Shown here: positions 3,700 through 27,754 of the stretch, piece by piece
Layout of the letters: each line of letters opens with the position of its first letter
Numbering within the stretch: position 1 is the stretch's first letter
IMG/VR virus record: IMGVR_UViG_3300046352_000035
Location: 1 to 28,520 of that record
DNA: 28,520 bases
DNA from: a virus
Reading direction: 5' to 3' (one strand)
Translations under genes and position numbers: made by a program
The notes under the pieces: model-generated
Databases searched by the model: none
Seen by the model: only the letters and a program-made list of their open reading frames with translations
What the model was told of the DNA's origin: nothing

Positions 3700-3900
3700 A
3701 TGTTTTCACACGAAGTTTTGCTAGGCCAAGAAGGTAACTGGATAGACGCCAGGTTCTTTATCACTGACGGAGAGATAGAAGACCTGACACTTTGGCTCAA
3801 TGACGTCAACCTTACAAGTCTATTGATAGAGCCTTACGGGTTGAAGGTAAAAAAAGACATTTACCAAAACCTGCCGAGAATTAAAAAATGGGGCGATTAA
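3700..3900 (+). CDS. Hypothetical acidic small protein
   Basis: A 66-residue protein that alternates strands and short helices (WIDARFFITDGEIEDLTLWL, then L-L-I-E-P-Y-G). It has no cysteines, signal or membrane segment. It has one of the strongest ribosome sites in the window (AGGAGG five bases from ATG), partly inside a hairpin. It overlaps the sigma-like gene by 13 bases, so the two are probably coupled. Unrecognised; being paired with the regulator, it could be a modulator or co-factor of it. Confidence 0.6.
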   Translation: MFSHEVLLGQEGNWIDARFFITDGEIEDLTLWLNDVNLTSLLIEPYGLKVKKDIYQNLPRIKKWGD

Positions 3901-4361
3901 AACACTACGGAAAACTAGACGTAGTGAATTTACCAAGTGAAGTAAAAAAGATTTGGTACAGCAAAGACGTTGAACCGGAGCCATGTGAACCAATAGATTC
4001 TTACTGGCCAACAACTACAGATTGCGATCTGGAAATAAAAAAAGACTTTGCAAAAAGATTGCTAGACATAACTCCATTAACAGAGCAAGAAGAAAAAATT
4101 ATTTATCTGATTGTTTTTGATAATGCAACATTAAGAGAAGCTGGAAAAGAACTAGATAAATCTCAAGAGCGGATAAGGCAAATTCTTATAAAAGCATTGA
4201 GAAGATTTAGAAACCACCAAGTAAAACTTACTGGAATACCAAGCATAGAAATAGATGATCGAGTTATGCCGTGGTTTTGGTATCAACATGAAATGAAAAG
4301 GATTAGACATGAGCAAAGTAGTACCGCTAGGTGCAACATGGGATGCAACAGCCGCGCTTAA
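3888..4361 (+). CDS. Sigma-70 region-4-like regulator (late-switch candidate)
   Basis: A 157-residue protein with a sigma-region-4-type helix-turn-helix. L-T-E-Q-E-E-K-I-I-Y-L at 64-74 is the first helix, TLREAGKELDKSQERIRQIL at 81-100 the turn and recognition helix, ending in K-A-L-R-R-F-R. Residues 1-55 match no sigma region 2, so it could not act alone as a full sigma. The tail after 115 is basic and Trp-rich. It stands at the end of a nuclease cluster, the position held by late regulators of the Q type in lambdoid phages. Bases 4081-4140 contain 16 G/C in 60 against 32 in 60 at 4501-4560, so it may be a transferred gene. Promoter binding is well supported; the exact role is inferred. Confidence 0.7.
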   Translation: MGRLKHYGKLDVVNLPSEVKKIWYSKDVEPEPCEPIDSYWPTTTDCDLEIKKDFAKRLLDITPLTEQEEKIIYLIVFDNATLREAGKELDKSQERIRQILIKALRRFRNHQVKLTGIPSIEIDDRVMPWFWYQHEMKRIRHEQSSTARCNMGCNSRA

Positions 4362-8076: not shown

Positions 8077-8526
8077 ATGCCGAATGGAAACTTAAAGCAC
8101 GAAGTAACTTGTCCATCTTGCCAAGAAAATCGCCTTGTGCGATCTGATGTAATTTTAAAACTTTCAAGGCAAAACAAACTTCTAATTTGTAAACCCTGTC
8201 ATAACAGGATGCGATTTGACAATAGAGATCACCCAAGAAAAGGCACGGGTGTAAAAAACAATCCTGAACTTTTTAGGACTAAATCAAGCTACTACAAGGC
8301 TAAACAAAGATGCAAGTTAGGTACAAAGCATCATCCTTGTTATGAGATGGTTGAGTTTAGATTTGAATCGTTGCAGCAACTGATTGATTGCATTGGTATT
8401 AGGCCAGATGGAATGACTCTTGACCGCATTGATCCGCTTGGACATTATGAGCCCAATAATGTAAGATGGGCAACAGTGCAAGAGCAAGCCAAAAATAGGC
8501 TTCCCCGTGGATACTGGCGGAAATAA
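8077..8526 (+). CDS. Free-standing HNH homing-type endonuclease
   Basis: A 149-residue protein. An N-terminal zinc knuckle pair (C12-x2-C15, C38-x2-C41) is followed by a linker with K-R-G-T-G-V-K-N-N-P, then the HNH core at 114-133: L-D-R-I-D, H123, N127-N128 and R-W-A-T. This is the L-D-R-I-D...Y-x-P-x-N-x-R-W-A-T signature of phage homing endonucleases. AAAGGAG precedes the ATG. The gene separates two members of the small basic protein cluster and is AT-richer than they are, so it looks like a mobile insertion that copies itself into phages lacking it. No intron boundary is visible. The active-site residues appear intact. Confidence 0.82.
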   Translation: MPNGNLKHEVTCPSCQENRLVRSDVILKLSRQNKLLICKPCHNRMRFDNRDHPRKGTGVKNNPELFRTKSSYYKAKQRCKLGTKHHPCYEMVEFRFESLQQLIDCIGIRPDGMTLDRIDPLGHYEPNNVRWATVQEQAKNRLPRGYWRK

Positions 8527-8716: not shown

Positions 8717-10258
8717 ATGGCAGACCGAATGATTGCAACACCAATGGCAAATCCAATTATGGGTTTGCTGGCTGATCGACTTAAAAAAGTGCAGCAGTTT
8801 GCAACAAACCCATACGGTTATGCCAATCCCCCTGCTGAAATGCTTCTTAACTTGCTGGGTGTGCCCGCTGTCCAGCAAACAATGGAGCGCATGGCTTATG
8901 GTGAGCCGCTGACCACTGGGGCTGGTATGACTACCAAACCTCGTGCAGAAGCCGTAGAAGCCGCTATGACGGTTGCGCCTGTTGCTGGACTATTGGCAAA
9001 GACCACAAAAGGTTTGCCAGTAGGTGCAAGTATTAAGGATGTTTCTTATCGTGGAAGCCATACTCCTCCAAATGCTAATACTTATGGCGCAACGCTAGAT
9101 GATTTAACAAAGATTTTGCCAGAAGATGTTTATTCACAACAAGGTAAACAGCTTTATGGAATTGGTGACAGACTTATTGATTCTGAGTGGCGTATTGCAG
9201 CATTGAAGGCAAGAGGCAAACCTGATGCTGAAATCGAAGTTTATCGTGCTGTTCCAAAAGGTGTTAAAGAAATCAATGATGGAGATTGGGTTTCAACAAG
9301 TAAGAAATATGCCAAAGACCATGGAGAAAACACTTTAAATGGTGAATACGATATTATCAGTAAAAAAGTAAAAGCCAAAACTTTATCAACTGAGGGCTAT
9401 CCTTATGAGTATGGATATAATGAAGTTCCAAATTTTCCAAGACAAGAAGCACTAGATACAGCCCAAAGAAACGCTACATTGCCTATTGAAAATGGTGGTC
9501 TAGGACTTCCTAAAGATAATACAGCTATAAATAGAGCAAAAGCAATGGGCTTTGATATAGAAACATTGCATGGTTCACCAAACCCAAATATTGAAGCATT
9601 TGACCCAATGATGGCTGGCGGAAACACCGGTAATGCTTTTGATAATAATATCTTTGCAACAAGTAGCCCAGAATCTGCTGGTGGATATGCTCTTAATTGG
9701 AAGCATTACAGAAACACAGTCAAGACAAGTCCAGAATTTAAAGCTATTACTCGTGAAGAAAACACCTTACTAAGTAAGATAGGTGATCTCATAGAGGCTG
9801 GCGATACTAAAGGTGTTGCTGATATAAAAACAAGATTAGATGAACTTACTCAGCAAAAGACTGGTATTTATAACGACTTCATGGCTGGAAAACTTGGTTC
9901 TGAAGGTTCTACTATTTATCCATTGGTAGCTAGAAGTGAAGATTTTTTGCCTTATGAGGCAGAAGGTGCAAACTGGATGAGGGCAAATCGCCCTGCAATT
10001 GATGCTGCCGAACAAACTGGTTATTCAGGCGCTTTGATTAGAAATGTAAAAGACAATGCCGGAACAAATTTAGGTACGATTGCTGATGTTCTGGCAACAT
10101 CTGACCCTAGTAGATTCCGATCACGCTTTGCGGCCTTTGACCCAATGCGTAGAAACGAACCTGATCTTCTTGCTGGGGTGTTACCATTAAGCTTGCTAAT
10201 GGATGAAGAAAATAAAAAGAACGCAGATCAATTTATACGAGGTCTTTTAGGCCAGTAA
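8717..10258 (+). CDS. Polyvalent protein with two ADP-ribosyltransferase-like domains
   Basis: A 513-residue protein with four parts. (a) 1-105: a shared N-terminal region common in podovirus polyvalent proteins. (b) About 108-240: an R-S-E-type ADP-ribosyltransferase-like domain, with Y-R-A-V-P (R177), D-W-V-S-T-S (193-195) and E-Y-G-Y (E231). (c) About 275-475: a second domain of the H-Y-type, with H-G-S-P (H285), I-E-A-F-D-P, N-I-F-A-T-S-S and Y324, ending in F-R-S-R-F-A-A-F-D-P. (d) A C-terminal tail that may touch membrane. Such enzymes attach ADP-ribose from NAD to host proteins, as T4 Alt and Mod do, and are often carried in the virion. Bases 9301-9360 hold 19 G/C in 60, against 34 in 60 at 8881-8940, so the core looks transferred. 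Catalysis is inferred. Confidence 0.65.
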   Translation: MADRMIATPMANPIMGLLADRLKKVQQFATNPYGYANPPAEMLLNLLGVPAVQQTMERMAYGEPLTTGAGMTTKPRAEAVEAAMTVAPVAGLLAKTTKGLPVGASIKDVSYRGSHTPPNANTYGATLDDLTKILPEDVYSQQGKQLYGIGDRLIDSEWRIAALKARGKPDAEIEVYRAVPKGVKEINDGDWVSTSKKYAKDHGENTLNGEYDIISKKVKAKTLSTEGYPYEYGYNEVPNFPRQEALDTAQRNATLPIENGGLGLPKDNTAINRAKAMGFDIETLHGSPNPNIEAFDPMMAGGNTGNAFDNNIFATSSPESAGGYALNWKHYRNTVKTSPEFKAITREENTLLSKIGDLIEAGDTKGVADIKTRLDELTQQKTGIYNDFMAGKLGSEGSTIYPLVARSEDFLPYEAEGANWMRANRPAIDAAEQTGYSGALIRNVKDNAGTNLGTIADVLATSDPSRFRSRFAAFDPMRRNEPDLLAGVLPLSLLMDEENKKNADQFIRGLLGQ

Positions 10259-10316: not shown

Positions 10317-11447
10317 ATGAAAAATTCGCCAGTAGTCGAAATAATCGACATTGAGAGCCTGATCCCTTACGCAAGGAACAGCCGTACACACGATGACTCT
10401 CAGGTGGCGCAAATTGCTGCCAGCATCAAAGAGTTTGGATTCACAAACCCTGTTCTGATTGATGCTGATAGCGGCATCATTGCAGGGCATGGCCGCATCA
10501 TGGCCGCAAGAAAACTTGGCCTTGTTGACATTCCATGTATTAGGCTTGGACATTTAACTGAGGCCCAGAAACGAGCTTACGTCATCGCCGACAACAAACT
10601 TGCCCTTAATTCAGGGTGGGACAACGAAATGTTGTTGGTTGAGTTTGCCGAGCTAGAAGATTTAGGCTTTGATCTTGATCTGACTGGTTTTGTCCAAGAA
10701 GAAATTGACGGATTAAAGCCTGAAGTGGTGCAAGAAGGGCTAACAGATGAGGATGCCGTTCCTGAAGTGCCTGTTGAGCCTGTAACGAATGTGGGAGACG
10801 TTTACATCCTTGGGCGGCATCGGTTGATGTGCGGTGACTCAACTATCCTAAATGACGTTGACAAACTCATGCTTGGCGTTTACCCAGACTTAATTCACAC
10901 AGATCCGCCATATGGAATGAACGCGGTTAGTAAATCGTCTGTGCTAAAAAAGAATTACAAAATTGACATTTTGGGAGATGACACACCAGACGTTGCCAAG
11001 GACGCATTTAATTTGATTTTTGGTTTGTACCCTAACGCAAAACATATTTGGTGGGGAGCAAACTATTACAGTTCAGTGCTGCCAGATAGTGAGTGTTGGT
11101 TGGTTTGGGATAAGAACAACGGCCAAAGTGACCAAACTGACTGTGAACTGGCGTGGGCCAACTTCCGTAGTGTGGTTCGTCAATTCACACAGGCATCCGA
11201 AAAGACCAATCGGGTGCATCCAACGCAAAAGCCAGTCTCACTCATGGAGTGGATCATCAAACGCTTCAAACTGTCGGCAAATACCATCGCTGACTTCTTT
11301 GGTGGATCAGGTAGTACATTGATTGCTGCGGAAAAGAATGGAATTCAAGCATTTATTATGGAATTTGATCCAAGGTTTTGCGATGTTATTGTAAAGAGGT
11401 GGGAAGAATACACAGGCAAGAAAGCCGTACTTGAGGTGCGGTCATGA
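10317..11447 (+). CDS. ParB-domain fused DNA methyltransferase (N4/N6 type)
   Basis: A 376-residue fusion. Residues 1-95 are a ParB/Srx-like N-terminal domain, with I-I-A-G-H-G-R at 54-60 and a following A-A-R-K-L-G. The rest is an amino-methyltransferase: D-P-P-Y-G at 196-200 (catalytic motif IV), H-P-T-Q-K-P at 301-306, and the AdoMet-binding motif D-F-F-G-G-S-G-S at 326-333. Motif IV before motif I gives the beta-class order. It would methylate adenine-N6 or cytosine-N4 in phage DNA, protecting it from host restriction or tagging it for packaging. No cognate restriction gene is present. It overlaps terS by ATGA, linking modification and packaging. Confidence 0.9.
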   Translation: MKNSPVVEIIDIESLIPYARNSRTHDDSQVAQIAASIKEFGFTNPVLIDADSGIIAGHGRIMAARKLGLVDIPCIRLGHLTEAQKRAYVIADNKLALNSGWDNEMLLVEFAELEDLGFDLDLTGFVQEEIDGLKPEVVQEGLTDEDAVPEVPVEPVTNVGDVYILGRHRLMCGDSTILNDVDKLMLGVYPDLIHTDPPYGMNAVSKSSVLKKNYKIDILGDDTPDVAKDAFNLIFGLYPNAKHIWWGANYYSSVLPDSECWLVWDKNNGQSDQTDCELAWANFRSVVRQFTQASEKTNRVHPTQKPVSLMEWIIKRFKLSANTIADFFGGSGSTLIAAEKNGIQAFIMEFDPRFCDVIVKRWEEYTGKKAVLEVRS

Positions 11448-11857
11448 GCCTTACATCAAAGCAAGAACATTTTTGCCAATCTATTGCTGATGGAATGAGT
11501 CAAGCAGATGCATACCGTAAGGCTTTTGATGCAGACAATATGAAGGCCGAAACAATCCACAAAAGAGCAAGCGAGTTGATGGCTAGCGGGGAGGTTTCGG
11601 GTAGGGTGGCTGAATTAAAAGCAAAGCTGACTGCAAAAGCCCTTTGGACGCGCGAAATGAGCGTTCAGGCGCTTGTTTCTGCCTACAAGATAGCCAAGGG
11701 CAAGGACAACGCTTCAGGCATGACAGGGGCCATTAAAGAGCTTAATGCGATGCATGGCTTTAACGAGCCGACCAAGCATGAGTTATCTGGCCCTAATGGT
11801 GGGCCGATGGATATTGCGGCCATTCAAATTACACTGGTCAAGCCGAATGAATCTTGA
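11444..11857 (+). CDS. terS: Terminase small subunit
   Basis: A 137-residue DNA-recognition subunit. The opening LTSKQEHFCQSIADG and S-Q-A-D-A-Y-R-K-A-F, then H-K-R-A-S-E-L, match the Terminase_2 family (winged helix-turn-helix followed by an oligomerising helix). The C-terminal segment P-N-E-P-T/G-P-N-G-G type linker should contact the large subunit. Length is normal. It starts at the ATGA junction with the methyltransferase and overlaps terL by 11 bases. It would choose the packaging site and stimulate the motor. The site itself is not visible here. Confidence 0.9.
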   Translation: MSLTSKQEHFCQSIADGMSQADAYRKAFDADNMKAETIHKRASELMASGEVSGRVAELKAKLTAKALWTREMSVQALVSAYKIAKGKDNASGMTGAIKELNAMHGFNEPTKHELSGPNGGPMDIAAIQITLVKPNES

Positions 11858-13097
11858 ACTGGACTTCCCTGAAAAGCTGGGATTCTTGTTTGAGCCACAC
11901 CGATACAAAATTCTGTATGGTGGTCGAGGCTCGGCTAAGTCTTGGTCGGTTGCTCGGGCATTGATTGCCATCGCGGTACAGAAGCCAACACGAATCCTTT
12001 GCGCTCGTGAGTTACAGAACTCAATCTCTGATTCGGTTATTGCTTTGCTTGGTGACCAAATCAAGGCTATGGGGCTGGAGTCGTTCTTTGATGTACAGAG
12101 AACAGCCATATACGGATTGAACGGCTCTGAGTTCAGTTTTGTGGGCTTGAAGCACAATGTGACTTCAATCAAGTCTTACGAGGGCGTAGACATTTGCTGG
12201 TGTGAAGAGGCGCAGGCCATTTCCAAGGTTTCGTGGGAAACGCTGATACCTACCATCCGTAAGCCAAACTCTGAGATATGGGCAACATTCAACCCAGACC
12301 TGGACACGGACGAAACTTACAAGCGATTCGTAGTGAATCCACCGCCAAGCGCCAAGATCGCCAAGGTCAACTGGTCGGACAATCCGTGGTTCCCGCAGGT
12401 TCTTAAAGAGGAGCTAGAAGACCTGAAGGCTAAGAACATGGATTCTTACCTCAATGTCTGGGAAGGCCACACACGACAAATGCTTGATGGCGCGGTCTAT
12501 GCCAACGAGCTACGCAAAGCCCAAGAAGACGGTCGCATCCGAGAATTGATGATTGATAAGTCGATTCCAGTGCAAACCTTTTGGGATTTAGGCTGGGCGG
12601 ACATGACCTCAATCTGGTTTGTCCAAACCATCGCAGGCGGTGAGGTTCGGGTTATTGATTTCTATCAAAACTGCCAAAAGACCATCGACCACTACGCTCA
12701 GGTGCTACAAGACAAGGGGTATATCTATAAAGACTGGTGGCTACCGCATGATGCCGAAAACAAGAATATGACCGGAAAATCCGTTAAAGATATTCTTGAG
12801 GGAATGGGCAAACCAGTCAGGATTACGCCAAAGCTGTCTATTGCAGATGGTATTAACGCAGCGCGTACATTGCTAAACCGAGCGTTTATCCATGAAACTA
12901 ACTGTGCTGACGGTCTACAGAATCTGCGCCATTACCGCTATGACGTAGACCCAAACACAAAGATGTTCAGCAATAAACCATTGCATGACCAACACAGCCA
13001 CGCAGCCGATGCTTGGCGGTATGTAGCCGTTGCCCTAGATGAAACAACAAGTTCATGGGGCAAATCAATCAATATAGTTCCGAAATGGGTGGTCTAA
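11847..13097 (+). CDS. terL: Terminase large subunit (PBSX/Terminase_3 type)
   Basis: A 416-residue packaging motor and nuclease. Walker A G-G-R-G-S-A-K-S is at 25-32, Walker B V-D-I-C-W-C-E-E at 114-121 with catalytic E, and the coupling region F-N-P-D near 150. The C-terminal nuclease has F-W-D-L-G-W-A-D (metal Asp) and ends with H-A-A-D-A-W-R-Y-V. ATP drives DNA into the portal and the nuclease trims the ends. ATG 11847 is chosen because it gives a normal N-terminus and an 11-base overlap with terS; the frame extends further upstream without supporting features. Length is typical of the PBSX group (about 400-430). Confidence 0.95.
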   Translation: MNLELDFPEKLGFLFEPHRYKILYGGRGSAKSWSVARALIAIAVQKPTRILCARELQNSISDSVIALLGDQIKAMGLESFFDVQRTAIYGLNGSEFSFVGLKHNVTSIKSYEGVDICWCEEAQAISKVSWETLIPTIRKPNSEIWATFNPDLDTDETYKRFVVNPPPSAKIAKVNWSDNPWFPQVLKEELEDLKAKNMDSYLNVWEGHTRQMLDGAVYANELRKAQEDGRIRELMIDKSIPVQTFWDLGWADMTSIWFVQTIAGGEVRVIDFYQNCQKTIDHYAQVLQDKGYIYKDWWLPHDAENKNMTGKSVKDILEGMGKPVRITPKLSIADGINAARTLLNRAFIHETNCADGLQNLRHYRYDVDPNTKMFSNKPLHDQHSHAADAWRYVAVALDETTSSWGKSINIVPKWVV

Positions 13098-17030: not shown

Positions 17031-17972
17031 ATGGAAAACACCAACCCTAACGGGAGTGAAAGCCTAAGCGTGAATCAAGCCGCATCTGCGTTTCTGGGTT
17101 TGATGGGTGGAGACGAGGGAGCCGAGGGCCAACCCGAGCAGCCAGCCGAAGAACTTGAAACCAGTGCTGAATCTGATGAAACTGAGTATTCGGGTGAATC
17201 AGATGAGCCTGTAGAGGAAGTAAAACCCCGCTACAAGGCCAAGGTCGGTGGTGAGGAAGTCGAGGTAGAACTTGACGAGCTTATCAACGGCTATCAACGT
17301 AGCAAGGATTACACGCAAAAATCTCAAGCTCTTGCTGAGCAACGCAAAGCTGTAGAAGCTGAGCGCCAACATCTTGAGCAGGTTAAACAAGAGCGACAAG
17401 CATACGCCCAGAAATTGCAGGCACTCGACAGCTTCTTGAGTCAGCAAAACAAGGGTGAGGATTTGGAAGTTTTGAAAGAGACAGACCCCATTGCATACGC
17501 AGTGAAGGTAGCCGAACAGTCTCAGCGTGAGAAACAGTTAGCAGTTGTCCGAGCCGAACAGCAACGCATTGCCCAACAGCAACAAGCCGAGCAACAGCAA
17601 CAATTGCAAAACCATCTCAAGTCTGAAGCAGAAAAGCTCGCGTCTGTTATCCCAGAACTGGCCACGCCAAAAGGTGACGCTATCCGGAAAGAAATCCGCG
17701 AATATGCGAAGTCTGTTGGTTGGTCAGATCAAGAACTCGCCTCAGTGTATGACCATCGCGCTGTGCTGACTTTGTATAAAGCAATGAAGTTTGAGCAGCT
17801 TCAAAAGGGCAAAACTGAAACCTTGAAAAAGGTTCAGCAAGCTCCCAAGATGCTTAAAGCCGGAACTTCAGCGCCTGATACCAAGTCTGCGCAAGACAAA
17901 CAGGTAATGCAACGGTTGCGCCAAACCGGAAAAGTCACTGACGCAGCAAAAGCATTTGAGCGTTTCCTTTAA
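17031..17972 (+). CDS. Scaffolding protein
   Basis: A 313-residue protein that shapes the empty procapsid and leaves before or during packaging. The N-terminus (20-65) is acidic and disordered (repeated Glu, Gln, Ser, Asp). A G-G-E-E-V-E-V-E-L-D-E-L-I-N-G-Y-Q segment follows at about 72-88, typical of phage scaffolds. Residues 90-220 are coiled coil, very rich in Gln, Lys and Glu. A basic C-terminus (V-T-D-A-A-K-A-F-E-R-F-L) resembles coat-binding helix-turn-helix ends. It lies directly before the capsid gene, 17 bases apart. The call rests on composition, order and the E-V-x-L-D-E-L-I-N-G motif. Confidence 0.85.
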   Translation: MENTNPNGSESLSVNQAASAFLGLMGGDEGAEGQPEQPAEELETSAESDETEYSGESDEPVEEVKPRYKAKVGGEEVEVELDELINGYQRSKDYTQKSQALAEQRKAVEAERQHLEQVKQERQAYAQKLQALDSFLSQQNKGEDLEVLKETDPIAYAVKVAEQSQREKQLAVVRAEQQRIAQQQQAEQQQQLQNHLKSEAEKLASVIPELATPKGDAIRKEIREYAKSVGWSDQELASVYDHRAVLTLYKAMKFEQLQKGKTETLKKVQQAPKMLKAGTSAPDTKSAQDKQVMQRLRQTGKVTDAAKAFERFL

Positions 17973-17989
17973 TTTTTGGAGCTTTTAAC

Positions 17990-18934
17990 ATGGCAACCTA
18001 TCAAACCTATACGGCCATTGGCCAACGTGAAGACTTGGCAGACGTCATTTATGACATTTCGCCTACCGACACCCCTTTCATGTCGTCTATCGGCAAAACC
18101 AACGCTACTGCAACTTACCATGAGTGGCAGACTGACAGCTTGGCCGCAGCCGCTCTGGGTGGTGCTGTTGAAGGTGCTGATGCCTCTAGCATCACTGCCT
18201 CGCCCACTACCCGTATCGGCAACCGTACCCAGATTTTCACTAAGTCTGTGGCCATTGCTGGTACTTTGGAAGCCGTGGACAAAGCTGGCCGTAAGTCTGA
18301 GAAGGCTTACCAATTGGCTAAAGTGTCTGCTGAACTGAAGCGCAACATTGAACTGACCTTGCTGTCTAACCAAGTGTCGTCTGCTGGTAACTCCAGCACC
18401 GCCCGCACTATGGGTGGCTTGCAGGCTTGGCTGGCCACTAACGGTGACTTCGGTTCGGGCGGCTCTGCTGGCGCTAACGGTACTACCGCTCGCACCAACG
18501 GCACCAACCGCACCTTCACTGAAGACATTCTGAAGGTCGTGGTGAAAGAGGTTTACCAGTCTGGTGGCAACCCCAAAGTGTTGATGGTCAACCCTGGCCA
18601 CAAGCAAGTGGTTTCCGCCTTCGCTGGTATCGCCGCTCAGCGTTACATGGCCCCCTCTAACGAGCCAACCACCATTGTGGGCGCGGCTGACGTTTATATG
18701 AGCGACTTCGGCACCATTTCCGTGGTTCCTAACCGCTTCATGAACAGCGCCAACTCGTGCGATGACACCGCTTTCATTGTCGACCCCGACATGGCTGCCG
18801 TGGCTTACTTGCGCCCATTCCAAACCATTGAATTGGCTAAGACTGGTGACAGCGAGAAAACCCAGTTGCTGGCTGAATTGACTTTGGAAGTCCGCAACGA
18901 AGCTGGTCATGGCATCATCGCCGACTTGAGCTAA
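17990..18934 (+). CDS. Major capsid protein (SU10-like, HK97 fold)
   Basis: A 314-residue protein that forms the icosahedral shell. The start MATYQTYTAIGQREDLADVI and D-I-S-P-T-D-T-P-F-M-S-S-I-G match the SU10-type capsid family (DUF5309). The conserved segment V-E-G-A-D-A-S-S-I-T and the C-terminal V-R-N-E-A-G-H-G-I-I fit as well. Length is normal. GGAG (17978-17981) stands eight bases before ATG. Codon use is biased towards GC-ending codons (18481-18540 has 33 G/C in 60) as expected of the most expressed gene. The strong bias also opens a long antisense frame that is not a gene. A terminator follows at 18953. Confidence 0.95.
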   Translation: MATYQTYTAIGQREDLADVIYDISPTDTPFMSSIGKTNATATYHEWQTDSLAAAALGGAVEGADASSITASPTTRIGNRTQIFTKSVAIAGTLEAVDKAGRKSEKAYQLAKVSAELKRNIELTLLSNQVSSAGNSSTARTMGGLQAWLATNGDFGSGGSAGANGTTARTNGTNRTFTEDILKVVVKEVYQSGGNPKVLMVNPGHKQVVSAFAGIAAQRYMAPSNEPTTIVGAADVYMSDFGTISVVPNRFMNSANSCDDTAFIVDPDMAAVAYLRPFQTIELAKTGDSEKTQLLAELTLEVRNEAGHGIIADLS

Positions 18935-23503: not shown

Positions 23504-24595
23504 ATGGCGGTTACTACCACCACCCAGATCGACCCAACAATCCAGCCGTTTTTAAGCTACGGATTGTCTGAGGCGCAGCGGCTTTATCAAGCTGGTGGCC
23601 CTCAATACTACCCAGGCCAAACCTACGTTGGCCCCTCTGAAACCACCCAAACAGGTCTTCAGGCTCTTGAGCAACGTGCTCGCATGGGTAATCCTTTGCT
23701 TGGTGCAGCGCAACAACAGATTCAAAACACCATTGGCGGTCAGTATCTCGGTGGCAATCCATTCTTTCAAGGCGCTTTCGCACCCGCTGCACAAGCCGCT
23801 ACCGCACAATTCAAAACCGCAATTGGTGACATTGGCTCTGCCGCTTCTAAGGCTGGTCGATACGGCTCGGGCGCAATGGGTGCGCTTGAAGATCGTGCGT
23901 CTAACCAACTTGCCCAACAACTGAGCAACACCGCTGGCCAACTGGCGTATCAGAATTACGCAAATGAGCGCGCACGACAGCAAGCCGCAACAATGGCCGC
24001 GCCCGCACTGTCTCAAGCCGACTACCAAGACATTCAAAACTTGTTAGCCGCTGGCCAAGCGCGTGAGGGTTACACTGGCCAACAGACAGCCGCTGATATT
24101 GCTCGATTCAATTTCCAGCAAAACGCCCCTCAGCAAAACCTGGCCACTTTCTTGTCTAGCGTTTACGGCAACCCGATCAACAACAATCGCAGCCAAACGC
24201 AAACAGGCTACGCTGACACATCTACCTTGCAAAATGTGCTGGGTACGGCTGCAACCTTTGGTGGTCTTTATAAGAACCTTGGCGGCTCTACCGGTATCAG
24301 CAACATCACAAACAGTATTGGTAACTGGTTAAATCCTTATGGTGGTACGCCGCAAGGTGCTTATTCGCAACAAACGCAGTATCTAAATAGTGCTTTGTCT
24401 AATCCACAAACCCAACAAGCTCAGATGCTTTCAGATCAGAACTCTTGGTTTTCAGGAGGTGTAGGCCCTAACGGCGCCTTTGCCAGCCCTGATGTAGGAT
24501 ATGTGAATAATGTATATAGCAGTAATCCACTTATGGCAACGCCATTAATTGCTCCTAATAATATAGCGATTGAATATAATAGCCCAGGTTTTTAA
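23504..24595 (+). CDS. Ejection-type virion protein 1
   Basis: A 363-residue protein starting MAVTTTTQIDPTIQPFLSYG. The Y-Y-P-G-Q-T-Y-V and L-Q-A-L-E-Q-R-A segments match a common family of podovirus internal virion proteins. The middle (about 90-200) is Ala/Gln-rich helix with F-Q-G-A-F-A-P-A-A-Q-A and A-Q-Q-L-S-N-T-A; the end is Asn/Gln/Gly-rich. This composition suits a partly unfolded protein passing through the tail. AAGGAG precedes the ATG. It heads a run of three large genes (to 27754) that should form the ejectosome. No enzymatic domain seen. Confidence 0.65.
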   Translation: MAVTTTTQIDPTIQPFLSYGLSEAQRLYQAGGPQYYPGQTYVGPSETTQTGLQALEQRARMGNPLLGAAQQQIQNTIGGQYLGGNPFFQGAFAPAAQAATAQFKTAIGDIGSAASKAGRYGSGAMGALEDRASNQLAQQLSNTAGQLAYQNYANERARQQAATMAAPALSQADYQDIQNLLAAGQAREGYTGQQTAADIARFNFQQNAPQQNLATFLSSVYGNPINNNRSQTQTGYADTSTLQNVLGTAATFGGLYKNLGGSTGISNITNSIGNWLNPYGGTPQGAYSQQTQYLNSALSNPQTQQAQMLSDQNSWFSGGVGPNGAFASPDVGYVNNVYSSNPLMATPLIAPNNIAIEYNSPGF

Positions 24596-24605
24596 GGGGG
24601 TGACT

Positions 24606-25895
24606 ATGGCTGGACTACTTGATATTTTTAGCTCTGGTGGTGGCGATACGCTGGGTTTGTTGGGAATGTCTCCACAAGACATTCAGCAAACCCGCGATGA
24701 CGCCCAAGCCCAAGCCCTCTACGGTTTAGCCGCTCGATTGTTTCAAGGCGGTAACACAGGCCAATCTATCGCTGAAGGCTTGCAACAAGGTCAAAAGCTC
24801 TACAAATCTGCACTGCAAAACCAAATGCAAGAGCAATTGCAAGGTTTCCAGGTGCAAGATATGTTGCGTAAGCGTAAGCTAGAAGAGCAGGCCCTAGCCC
24901 GCCAAGCAATGATTGATGCCCGTGTTGCTCAGGCTTACCAGCCCGCCGTACAAGCGCAGCCTGCTATGTATTACGGCCAAGAAACACAATTGCCGATTCG
25001 TGATGACCAAGGCAACTTGATGCCATTCGCTACTGAGCCGGTGCAAGGTCGTACGGCAACTCTTGATTTCCAGTCTCTTGCGCCCGTATTGATGACCAGC
25101 CCTGAAGGTCGTAAAACCCTAGGTGAGTTGGCGGCTGCCCAAAAAGCAATGGCTGGTGACACGTTTAGCCTTGCTGAAGGCGCAAAACAATTCCAGCGCA
25201 ACCCTTTTACTGGTGAAGTTGTTGAGGTTGCATCTGGTGCGCCTAAGCGTGAGCCGGTACCTAGCGCAATCGCTGAATACAAGTTTGCTCAAGATCAAGG
25301 TTTTAAAGGAACTTTCCAAGATTTCCAAGTGGCCATGAATCAGGCGAAGGCACCTAAGTTTGCGGTTGATCTGAAAGACCCAACAGCGGTTGCAAAAGCT
25401 CAGTCTGACATTGTGAAAGATTGGCGCGGTGTTGTTAAAGATACAGGCGCAATGGAAGTTGCTGACCGATACAAAGCTGCTAAGGGCGCGGTGGATGAAG
25501 CCAACAAAGGCAATAAGACCGCCGATGGTGCTTTGATCTACGCAATCGGTAAGATTTATGACCCTTCAGGCGCAGTGCAAGAAGGCGACAAGAAAACCAT
25601 TTTGGGAAATCGCTCGATTCCTCAAACGGTTCAAGCCTACGCGCAAAAAGCATTTTCAGGCCAAGAGCTTTTGCCATCTGAGCGGCAAGGTTTGCTTTCA
25701 ATGGCAAGTCAAATCGTCAAATCAAAGCAGGCAAACCTTGAAGCGCAAAAAGCACCTTACGTGAGCATTTCTCGCCAACTTGGCGGTGCTGGTGAATTGC
25801 TGCTTAATCCTTTGTCTGACGCCTTGACCGAGACACCGAGTGATCTCATGTCATTGGCAAGGGCTGAGCTTGCTCGTCGCCAAAAAGGTAAATAA
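24606..25895 (+). CDS. Ejection-type virion protein 2
   Basis: A 429-residue protein. A hydrophobic, glycine-rich start (AGLLDIFSSGGGDTLGLLGM) may touch membrane. Then Gln-rich helices (Q-A-L-Y-G-L-A-A-R-L-F-Q-G-G, L-Q-Q-G-Q-K-L-Y) and a long mixed region follow, ending in a basic helix (S-L-A-R-A-E-L-A-R-R-Q-K-G-K). It follows protein 1 by ten bases with GGGGGT before the ATG. Starts further upstream (24570) lie inside the previous gene. Order and composition fit an internal protein released with the genome; the family is not named. Confidence 0.6.
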   Translation: MAGLLDIFSSGGGDTLGLLGMSPQDIQQTRDDAQAQALYGLAARLFQGGNTGQSIAEGLQQGQKLYKSALQNQMQEQLQGFQVQDMLRKRKLEEQALARQAMIDARVAQAYQPAVQAQPAMYYGQETQLPIRDDQGNLMPFATEPVQGRTATLDFQSLAPVLMTSPEGRKTLGELAAAQKAMAGDTFSLAEGAKQFQRNPFTGEVVEVASGAPKREPVPSAIAEYKFAQDQGFKGTFQDFQVAMNQAKAPKFAVDLKDPTAVAKAQSDIVKDWRGVVKDTGAMEVADRYKAAKGAVDEANKGNKTADGALIYAIGKIYDPSGAVQEGDKKTILGNRSIPQTVQAYAQKAFSGQELLPSERQGLLSMASQIVKSKQANLEAQKAPYVSISRQLGGAGELLLNPLSDALTETPSDLMSLARAELARRQKGK

Positions 25896-27754
25896 TGGAT
25901 TTATCAAAACTCTCTGATAAAGACCTTGAGGCTTTGTCCTCTGGCAACTTGTCTGCAATGTCTGATGCGGCACTGATGCTCATTTCTGGCGAGCAAGAAA
26001 AACCGAATAAAACCAAAAAGCCAAGCCTGACAAAGCAAGAGGCTTTGCAGTACCTAACCGCAATGCCTGAAACTCCCACGATGGAGACGGGTAACGCTGC
26101 TGACCTTTTGCGTCAACTCGGCTTGTCGGCTCGCGCTGGCATCATGGGTGTGGCATCTTTGCCTTTGATGGCTGCTGAACCTTTGGCCGCAATGACTGGC
26201 CAGCCAAACCAAGCTCAAACGCTGCAATCTTTGCTGACCAAGTTGGGGTTGCCTGAGCCTAAAACATCTCAAGAGCGCGTGGTTCAAGATATTGCAAGCG
26301 CAGGAAGTGCTGTAGCCGCTCCCGCATCATTGTCTAAATACTTGGCTCCTGTAGCGCAAAAGTTCTTTACGCAAAATGTGGGCACGCAAGCCGCAGCCGC
26401 TGGTGGCGGTGCATTGGCCTCGGGTGCAGCCCGTGAAAGCGATGCAGGCCCGATTATGCAGCTTCTTGCTGGTCTTGGCGGTGGCATGATTGGCGGCACT
26501 ACAACTAGCGTTGGCCCGTCTGTTACACGAGCCGCAAAAGAAGTAGTCAGGCCATTTACCCAAGCAGGTCGTGAGGCAATCACTGGTAACGTGCTGAGAA
26601 GCCTTGCAAGCGATGCTGAGCAGGCTATTGAAGCGGGCGCTAAATACACGCCTACAGTTCCAGGCTATCAACCTACAACGGCACAAGCGACCCGTGATGT
26701 TGGCTTGATTTCTGCTGAAACACCGATTCGTGCCCTTGATGTTACTGGCAAGTTTGGCACGCAAACTGGTGAGGCAAACCAAGCTCGATTGGCTATCCTT
26801 GACCGTTTGGCTAAAGACAAAGCCGCAGTTGATGCCGCAATCGTTAAGCGTGAAGACGTTACCAAGCCTTTGCGTGAGCAAGCCTTTGCACAGTCTACGG
26901 TTAGCCCTGAGACATTCCAATCAGCGGTTGCTCTTAACGTCAACAAGACCATTGATGACATTCTTGCCTCTAATGCTGGTGCGCGAGGCACAGTTAAGAA
27001 GACCATGAATTGGGCGCGTGAGCAACTTGCTGAGGGCACTACGCCTGAGCGCCTGTACGAGGTTCGCAAAGACCTTAGAGACGCTGCACAAGGTCTTTTG
27101 GATAAAGAAGGCGCGGCATACAGCCTTGCAAAAGGTCAACTTGAGCAGGTTATCAAGTCTGTAGACGAAACGATTGAAGCGGCAGCGCCTGGCTATCGCG
27201 CTTACCTTGATAAGTTTGCAAAGTCTAGCCGTGGCATTGAGCGCCTTGAGGCCGCGCAAGAATTCCGTAGCAAAGTGCTTTCAACGACACCAGACCCTTC
27301 ACGGGTTGGTGATTTCTTGATTTCTCAGCCTTCATTTACTCGCGCTATTCGCGCGGCAGAAAAAGAGACCAAAATGTCTCAGGCGCAGCTAAATGCCTTG
27401 AGCAGGGTTGCACAAGACCTAGATTCAGGCGTTTTGGCTCGCGCGGTCAAAGTGCCTGGCTCCGACACGTTTAAGAATATCAGCACTGCAAACATTATTG
27501 GCGGCATCATTGGCAAACAAATGTTCGGCGAAGTTCCGCCCGCAGTTCAAAAAGTTAGCGCCCCATTAAACTGGCTATATAACGGCACAGATGACGCTAT
27601 CCGTGAATTGCTAGTTGATGCCATGCTTGACCCTAAACTAGCGTCTAAACTGATGACTAAAGCCTCAATGGTGACTGTTGAGCCATTAAGCAAAGAGCTA
27701 AAACGCAAAGCCATGTCGCTAGGTTATGGCGCAACATTTGGATTAACGGAGTAA
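25895..27754 (+). CDS. Ejection-type virion protein 3 (largest)
   Basis: A 619-residue protein. The opening L-S-D-K-D-L-E-A-L-S-S-G-N-L-S-A-M-S is a short motif found at the start of many podovirus virion proteins. Residues 80-210 contain two hydrophobic, Ala/Gly-rich stretches (A-G-I-M-G-V-A-S-L-P-L-M-A-A and A-A-A-G-G-G-A-L-A-S-G) that could span the host membrane. The remainder is helical with a coiled-coil character (A-R-L-A-I-L-D-R-L-A-K-D-K). It starts one base inside the previous stop (TAATG) and ends three bases before the fibre. No lysozyme or transglycosylase motif is seen. A channel role across the envelope is inferred. Confidence 0.65.
   Translation: MDLSKLSDKDLEALSSGNLSAMSDAALMLISGEQEKPNKTKKPSLTKQEALQYLTAMPETPTMETGNAADLLRQLGLSARAGIMGVASLPLMAAEPLAAMTGQPNQAQTLQSLLTKLGLPEPKTSQERVVQDIASAGSAVAAPASLSKYLAPVAQKFFTQNVGTQAAAAGGGALASGAARESDAGPIMQLLAGLGGGMIGGTTTSVGPSVTRAAKEVVRPFTQAGREAITGNVLRSLASDAEQAIEAGAKYTPTVPGYQPTTAQATRDVGLISAETPIRALDVTGKFGTQTGEANQARLAILDRLAKDKAAVDAAIVKREDVTKPLREQAFAQSTVSPETFQSAVALNVNKTIDDILASNAGARGTVKKTMNWAREQLAEGTTPERLYEVRKDLRDAAQGLLDKEGAAYSLAKGQLEQVIKSVDETIEAAAPGYRAYLDKFAKSSRGIERLEAAQEFRSKVLSTTPDPSRVGDFLISQPSFTRAIRAAEKETKMSQAQLNALSRVAQDLDSGVLARAVKVPGSDTFKNISTANIIGGIIGKQMFGEVPPAVQKVSAPLNWLYNGTDDAIRELLVDAMLDPKLASKLMTKASMVTVEPLSKELKRKAMSLGYGATFGLTE

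Follow-up and report, generated by a model that had tools for sequence, protein, structure and literature searches.

A phage gene next to the terminase genes joins a conserved leader to exchangeable cargo, here a divergent ART-PolyVal domain and a second, probable ADP-ribosyltransferase domain

In phages and conjugative elements, polyvalent proteins combine multiple effector domains in one chain, and ART-PolyVal is their commonest modifying domain (Iyer et al. 2017, PMC5512222). Several ADP-ribosyltransferases (ARTs) per phage protein are known, a single ART type being present up to 12 times, and the proteins have been proposed to be injected like T4 Alt, the precedent for an ART that is packaged and injected (PMC5512222). 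MuF polymorphic toxins of temperate phages consist of a conserved N-terminal part followed by a variable C-terminal effector; the effectors include ARTs, nucleases and metallopeptidases, the genes lie near portal or terminase genes, and here too injection has been proposed (Jamet et al. 2017, PMC5576092). Where ARTs are encoded close to terminases, packaging is the favoured view, the proposed alternative being that they counter immunity aimed at the packaging apparatus (PMC9503650).

Here we describe a gene from a viral record in IMG/VR, 28,520 bases long, the whole of which we call the window. The window reads as a single phage of freshwater type, and the named relatives closest to it are uncultured phages from Manatee Spring. 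Replication genes at the left are followed by an HNH gene, the gene under study, a ParB-N/DNA methylase gene and the genes for the small (TerS) and large (TerL) terminase subunits (Table 1). After TerL come an SU10-type portal, a scaffold, a coat protein, virion proteins, a DNA ejection protein, a 619-aa protein and a last open reading frame (ORF), which is incomplete because the record ends within it. The original prediction had placed two unlike ART-like domains in one gene just upstream of the packaging genes. The predicted ORF is present, it does hold two unlike domains (M in the middle and C towards the C-terminus), and every residue that had been named is in place: R177 in YRAVP, S193-T194-S195, E231 in EYGY, H285 in LHGSP, Y324, and FRSRFAAFDP at 467-476. 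A scan for promoters and terminators around the gene found no excess over chance. PADLOC gave no match to the 513-aa protein, and PDB sequences searched with the whole protein and with the M and C profiles gave none either. Two further observations concern other parts of the window: a 157-aa ORF of the early region (3888-4361) has a sigma-factor-like match (PHROG 351, E 7.9e-11), and a 313-aa open frame (17969-18910, minus strand) antisense to the major head protein gene is probably a coding-bias artefact.

Table 1. Position of the two-domain gene, its parts and its neighbours in the window.
Feature	Position	Strand	Remark
HNH gene	8077-8526
Whole gene: leader, M, linker, ART-PolyVal-like domain C, tail	8717..10258	+	513 aa
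Leader, residues 1-106 (..NPIMGLLADRLKK..YGEPLTTG.GMTTK..GLPVGAS)	8717..9034	+	80 distinct proteins, varied cargo
Middle domain M, residues 108-236; probable minimal R-S-E-type ART	9038..9424	+	PHROG 2579; no Pfam family
R177 codon, strand 1 of M	9245..9247	+	invariant
S193-T194-S195, strand 2 of M	9293..9301	+	position 193 S or T in 47/47
E231 codon, last strand of M	9407..9409	+	E in 47/47
Constant linker, residues 245-280 (ALDTAQRNATLPIENGGLGLPKDNTAINRAKAMGFD)	9449..9556	+	common to proteins with unrelated C domains
C domain, residues 281-479; divergent ART-PolyVal (PF18760)	9557..10153	+
H285 codon, strand 1 of C	9569..9571	+	H in 32/34
F313 codon, strand-2 aromatic	9653..9655	+	catalytic Tyr position of H-Y-x ARTs
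Y324 codon, second conserved aromatic	9686..9688	+	Y in 29/34
Helical insertion in C, residues ~328-389	9698..9883	+	close C relatives only
FRSRFAAFDP, residues 467-476, end of C domain	10115..10144	+	RSRFA.FDP invariant in relatives (partly search-selected)
ParB-N + N6/N4 DNA methylase gene	10317..11447	+	inserted between cargo gene and TerS
Terminase small subunit (TerS)	11444..11857	+
Terminase large subunit (TerL), listed ORF	11745..13097	+	actual start probably further in
DNA ejection protein gene	23504-24595
619-aa protein gene	25895..27754	+	beyond DNA ejection gene

The nearest known kinds are the polyvalent proteins by cargo and the MuF toxins by plan, with membership of neither complete. 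As in polyvalent proteins, one protein carries several effectors (ART-PolyVal in the window; PBECR5, LPD23, metallopeptidase, GNAT and ParB in sister proteins) and the genes lie near virion and packaging genes. The window protein differs from them in being smaller, with two cargo domains, in having a defined leader of about 105 aa that lies outside Pfam and PHROGs, and in that M is unnamed in Pfam. With the MuF toxins it shares a conserved N-terminal part, variable effectors and a place near the terminase. However, the MuF domain is absent both from the window protein and from the Pfam tally of 80 leader proteins, and there is no room for a small downstream immunity ORF: in 37 of the 42 leader-bearing loci with a same-strand TerL downstream, TerL follows the gene after 210-379 nt, a gap that a TerS-like ORF fills in the loci inspected. 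We therefore rejected a MuF polymorphic toxin proper. T4 Alt, ModA and ModB are likewise phage ARTs with R, S and E as catalytic residues, but T4 keeps its enzymes on separate genes, as the original prediction had pointed out. The similarity of M to T4 Mod is undetectable past the Arg motif, and the Arg-to-Ser spacing of M is shorter, at 16 residues. Three things are new here: the leader; the family of M domains, together with the enzyme class that is probable for it; and a pre-terminase slot occupied by genes with many leaders.

The gene is a modular cargo locus in which leader, M and C recombine independently of one another. This modularity, which the original prediction had missed, is the stronger and more general finding. 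The leader matches no Pfam or PHROG family, and by Pfam the cargo behind it in the 80 proteins comprises ART-PolyVal (22) and the PBECR5 nuclease (11), together with metallopeptidases, LPD23, GNAT and ParB. Compared with the window, one locus (L001) has an unrelated leader (33% identity) and an unrelated middle (25%) and a linker plus C that is 87% identical; a second (L002) retains leader (73%) and middle (85%) with 34% identity in C; a third (L033) has a leader of 85% identity in front of unrelated cargo. The same holds across the set. Among the 273 leader pairs of at least 85% identity the median cargo identity is 36%, against a mean of 24% for shuffled cargo; 119 pairs fall below 35% and only 10 exceed 80%. 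The loci counted include near-duplicates, and the counts are therefore not independent events. At the codon level the window and L007 have 33% of codons in common in the leader segment and 82% in the linker, which suggests that modules were exchanged recently, as far as codon identity can tell; the linker codons also agree with those of some other phages better than the leader codons do. The constancy of the linker and of RSRFAAFDP is partly selected for, because both were used in the search patterns and in the alignment filter; the leader-based protein set is free of this bias. A search of cellular genomes for the leader gave 65 pattern matches, none of which was confirmed. In five loci (L003, L033, L036, L037 and L042) the middle slot is occupied by a small further module (LIYHGTSPKAAKAIEKSGFD...), which resembles yet another H-type ART. 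That the leader is kept on unrelated cargo suggests an addressing role, and we regard this conserved segment as probably the addressing part of the protein.

The position directly upstream of the packaging genes, which the original prediction had noted for the window, is conserved. The ParB-methylase gene separates the leader gene from TerS in the window and in L016; a similar insertion between effector gene and TerS is found in L016, L130, L139, L149 and L154. Searching with M instead of the leader retrieved loci of which 46 out of 78 have TerL downstream, and the N-terminal leaders of these proteins are of many unrelated kinds. Within one run of these loci (L118-L167) many unrelated short leaders (70-120 aa) stand ahead of one M domain at the same place before TerS and TerL; they may be different virion-addressing signals. 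In a second group of phages the leader gene follows immediately, by ORF limits, after a homologue of the 619-aa protein of the window. A further case is MW202573 (L108:5533-7572, UOF78806.1), where a protein with M and an ART-PolyVal-like domain, annotated as 'DNA repair protein', is encoded between the genes for a tail adaptor and a stabilisation protein, upstream of a DNA injection gene. Taken together, the loci before TerL, the group behind the 619-aa protein and MW202573 place the gene within the late, virion-making block or next to it. Exchange extends to the terminase itself, since one leader gene can be followed by either of two unlike TerL types (L013 and L005 versus L004 and L107).

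M is a real and widespread phage domain, with at least 466 confirmed relatives in IMG/VR and others in mycobacteriophages and in bacterial or MAG contigs. It matches PHROG 2579 ('ParB C-terminal domain') over positions 338-462 of 472 (E 5.6e-32). No ParB model matched M, and the label of this PHROG seems to be a misnomer inherited from ParB-fused members; a ParB function for M was accordingly rejected as resting on the label. Alignment of 47 diverse relatives bears out the residues on which the R-S-E claim had been built: R177 and E231 never vary, and position 193 always holds S or T. Y111, H115, Y147, P180, N187, D190 and W191 are invariant as well. In a more distant set (n=34) the Arg is still invariant and the Glu is kept except in three Sinomonas sequences, which have Gln. 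Several chromosomal stand-alone M-like genes with the Glu replaced by Gln are found in Sinomonas genomes (L244, L245, L246, L250 and L251), possibly an inactive or altered set of paralogues. M is frequently the extreme C-terminus of its protein. It shares a single chain with an ART-PolyVal-like domain, in either order, in 15 of the 63 proteins found by M alone, and also in three bacterial or MAG proteins. As a stand-alone domain it forms gp133 of mycobacteriophage Bask21, and the genes labelled 'ParB C-terminal domain' (PHROG 2579) in many M. smegmatis phages consist of domain M alone (129 aa). The M gene of Bask21 overlaps a helix-turn-helix gene by 4 nt (gp133-gp132, L110:2492-3141), and together the two genes may form a regulated effector or a toxin-antitoxin-like unit.

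Is M an ADP-ribosyltransferase? The structure prediction and fold search proposed for each domain gave a confident AlphaFold model of M (pLDDT 91.7, pTM 0.85) and no significant match in the PDB for either domain. The model of M runs through four helices, a strand bearing R177, another that ends at S193, a helix, two strands and a strand with E231 at its edge, so that R177, S/T193 and E231 lie on predicted strands or at their edge in R-S-E order; this modelled strand order fits that expected of an R-S-E ART core. Searched with Foldseek, the PDB holds no significant fold match for M; the top match is an ART toxin (E 0.46, prob 0.09), and the 52 weak matches also include ARTs of the cholera-toxin and C3 types. 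In BFVD the strong matches are unnamed or polyvalent phage proteins and the ART-named ones are weak. No Pfam ART family was found to match M. Profile comparison (hhalign) aligned M with C at the strand-2/helix motif with a score of 20.2 (E 0.015), compared with a maximum of 17.3 in 60 column shuffles and 16.0 for the reversed profile. The match of M to the T4-type Mod profile, in which R177 aligns with R72 of ModA, lies within the shuffles (E 0.1) and was dropped as support. The C and Mod profiles, from two accepted ART clades, also fail to detect each other (E 0.92), so that the test has little power and the weak signal of M is uninformative rather than negative. Of the claim for the first domain, then, the motif pattern, the strand order and the invariant R, S/T and E stand, but the fold match is not significant and the profile match is marginal. 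We lean towards M being an R-S-E-type ADP-ribosyltransferase, a probable assignment short of proof. On its sequence M is not to be filed among the R-S-E ARTs, and we keep only the statement that it would work like one.

For the second domain the ART assignment is upheld through family membership. PF18760 is matched by 28 of the 34 aligned C relatives (best E 1.8e-11); the window copy itself scores E 0.087 and 14 bits, under the Pfam cut-off of 31.2 bits. As C is filed under PF18760 through the profile matches of its relatives, the window copy can only be called a divergent relative of the family. NCBIfam gave no match to the C relatives. In the model of C (pLDDT 81.6) H285 falls on the first strand, predicted at model positions 30-38. 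The predicted H/Y pattern holds in so far as H285 (32 of 34 relatives) and Y324 (29 of 34) are conserved, but Y324 is not the strand-2 tyrosine. That position is F313, aromatic in 31 of the 34 relatives (F in 15, Y in 8 and W in 8), so the window copy lacks the strand-2 Tyr of ART-PolyVal, a family of the Tox-ART-HYD2 clade, and we rejected Y324 as the catalytic Tyr of this strand. Y324 lies at the end of the helix that follows strand 2, eleven residues beyond F313. In characterised H-Y-E ARTs the nicotinamide pocket is lined by two tyrosines eleven residues apart, and Y324 would presumably correspond to the second of these. The 34 relatives show no clear conserved acid on strand 5; the best candidate, D463, is D in 14, N in 10 and E in 4, and its strand assignment is uncertain. 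With F at strand 2, no conserved strand-5 acid and a Pfam score under the cut-off, the C domain of the window could therefore be weak or inactive. Foldseek found no significant PDB match for C. Most of the matches were to the helical insertion, and the third, to a RES toxin (ART superfamily) at E 0.85, was not counted as support. By the family of its relatives, C is classed as a divergent ART-PolyVal domain of uncertain activity.

We propose a modular effector locus in phages, of which this gene would be one allele, with M and C as exchangeable enzyme cargo. The protein would be made late, together with the packaging and head genes, loaded into the virion by means of its leader and ejected along with the DNA, after which C, and probably M, would ADP-ribosylate two different host targets or sites in the manner of T4 Alt. 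What the sequences show is the domain architecture, the conserved key residues, the family of C, the exchange of modules and the conserved place beside TerS and TerL or beside the ejection block. Packaging in the virion, for which we rely on gene order and the analogy with polyvalent proteins, is inferred, as are the enzyme class of M, ejection and the host targets. We hold the proposal as a whole to be evenly poised. In one alternative the modular effector is the same but M has some other unclassified fold, for example a nuclease-like or nucleotide-binding-like one, in which Arg, Ser/Thr and Glu happen to be kept, leaving C as the only ART. This appreciable minority possibility draws on the lack of a Pfam family and of a significant fold or profile match between M and any ART, on the invariant Y111, H115 and D190-W191, which lie outside the usual R-S-E signature, and on the PBECR nucleases that hold a cargo position in sister proteins. 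Yet conserved residues and strands follow one another as in an ART core, a helix coming straight after the S/T strand, the top PDB match is an ART, the profiles of M and C meet at the equivalent motif, and missing matches count for little in a test in which C and Mod overlook each other.

A gene on the terminase side could also be late and yet not packaged. The enzyme might then stay in the producing cell, modifying host or phage proteins during packaging or excluding superinfecting phages, and never be ejected. Most copies do adjoin terminase genes and not virion structural genes, and a related alternative has been raised for ARTs near portal or terminase genes (PMC9503650). We think it unlikely nonetheless: the second leader group lies within the block of ejection genes, the MW202573 gene lies between tail adaptor and stabilisation genes ahead of a DNA injection gene, the cargo domains are those known from polyvalent proteins, for which injection is assumed (PMC5512222), and unrelated cargo behind one conserved leader suggests addressing. 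Far less probable still is a structural or scaffold role in packaging for a protein whose enzyme domains are degenerate and whose cargo is decoration. The C domain of the window, lacking the strand-2 Tyr and a clear strand-5 acid, and the Gln for Glu in three Sinomonas M proteins would agree with this, but all 47 diverse sequences of M keep R, S/T and E, and the cargo is swapped for recognisable enzymes (nucleases, peptidases and acetyltransferases) and not for filler.

Returning to the modular effector with two enzymes, a wider form of the proposal can be put forward tentatively, as one we find somewhat less probable than not. M would be a new and widespread family of minimal R-S-E ARTs under the 'ParB C-terminal domain' label, and the dedicated slot before the terminase or after the ejection genes would hold, behind many different leaders, exchangeable injected effectors that resemble polymorphic toxins without immunity genes. 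If this is true, the order of a leader with variable cargo directly before TerS and TerL would serve as a rule for finding injected phage effectors. Polyvalent-like proteins, in which only ARTs of the H-Y-D type had been reported, would gain a second ART type, with M, if confirmed, as the exception. The misleading annotation as 'ParB C-terminal domain' would be corrected for many mycobacteriophages, and the leader would be a testable candidate for a head-loading signal in phages with P22/SU10-type head genes.
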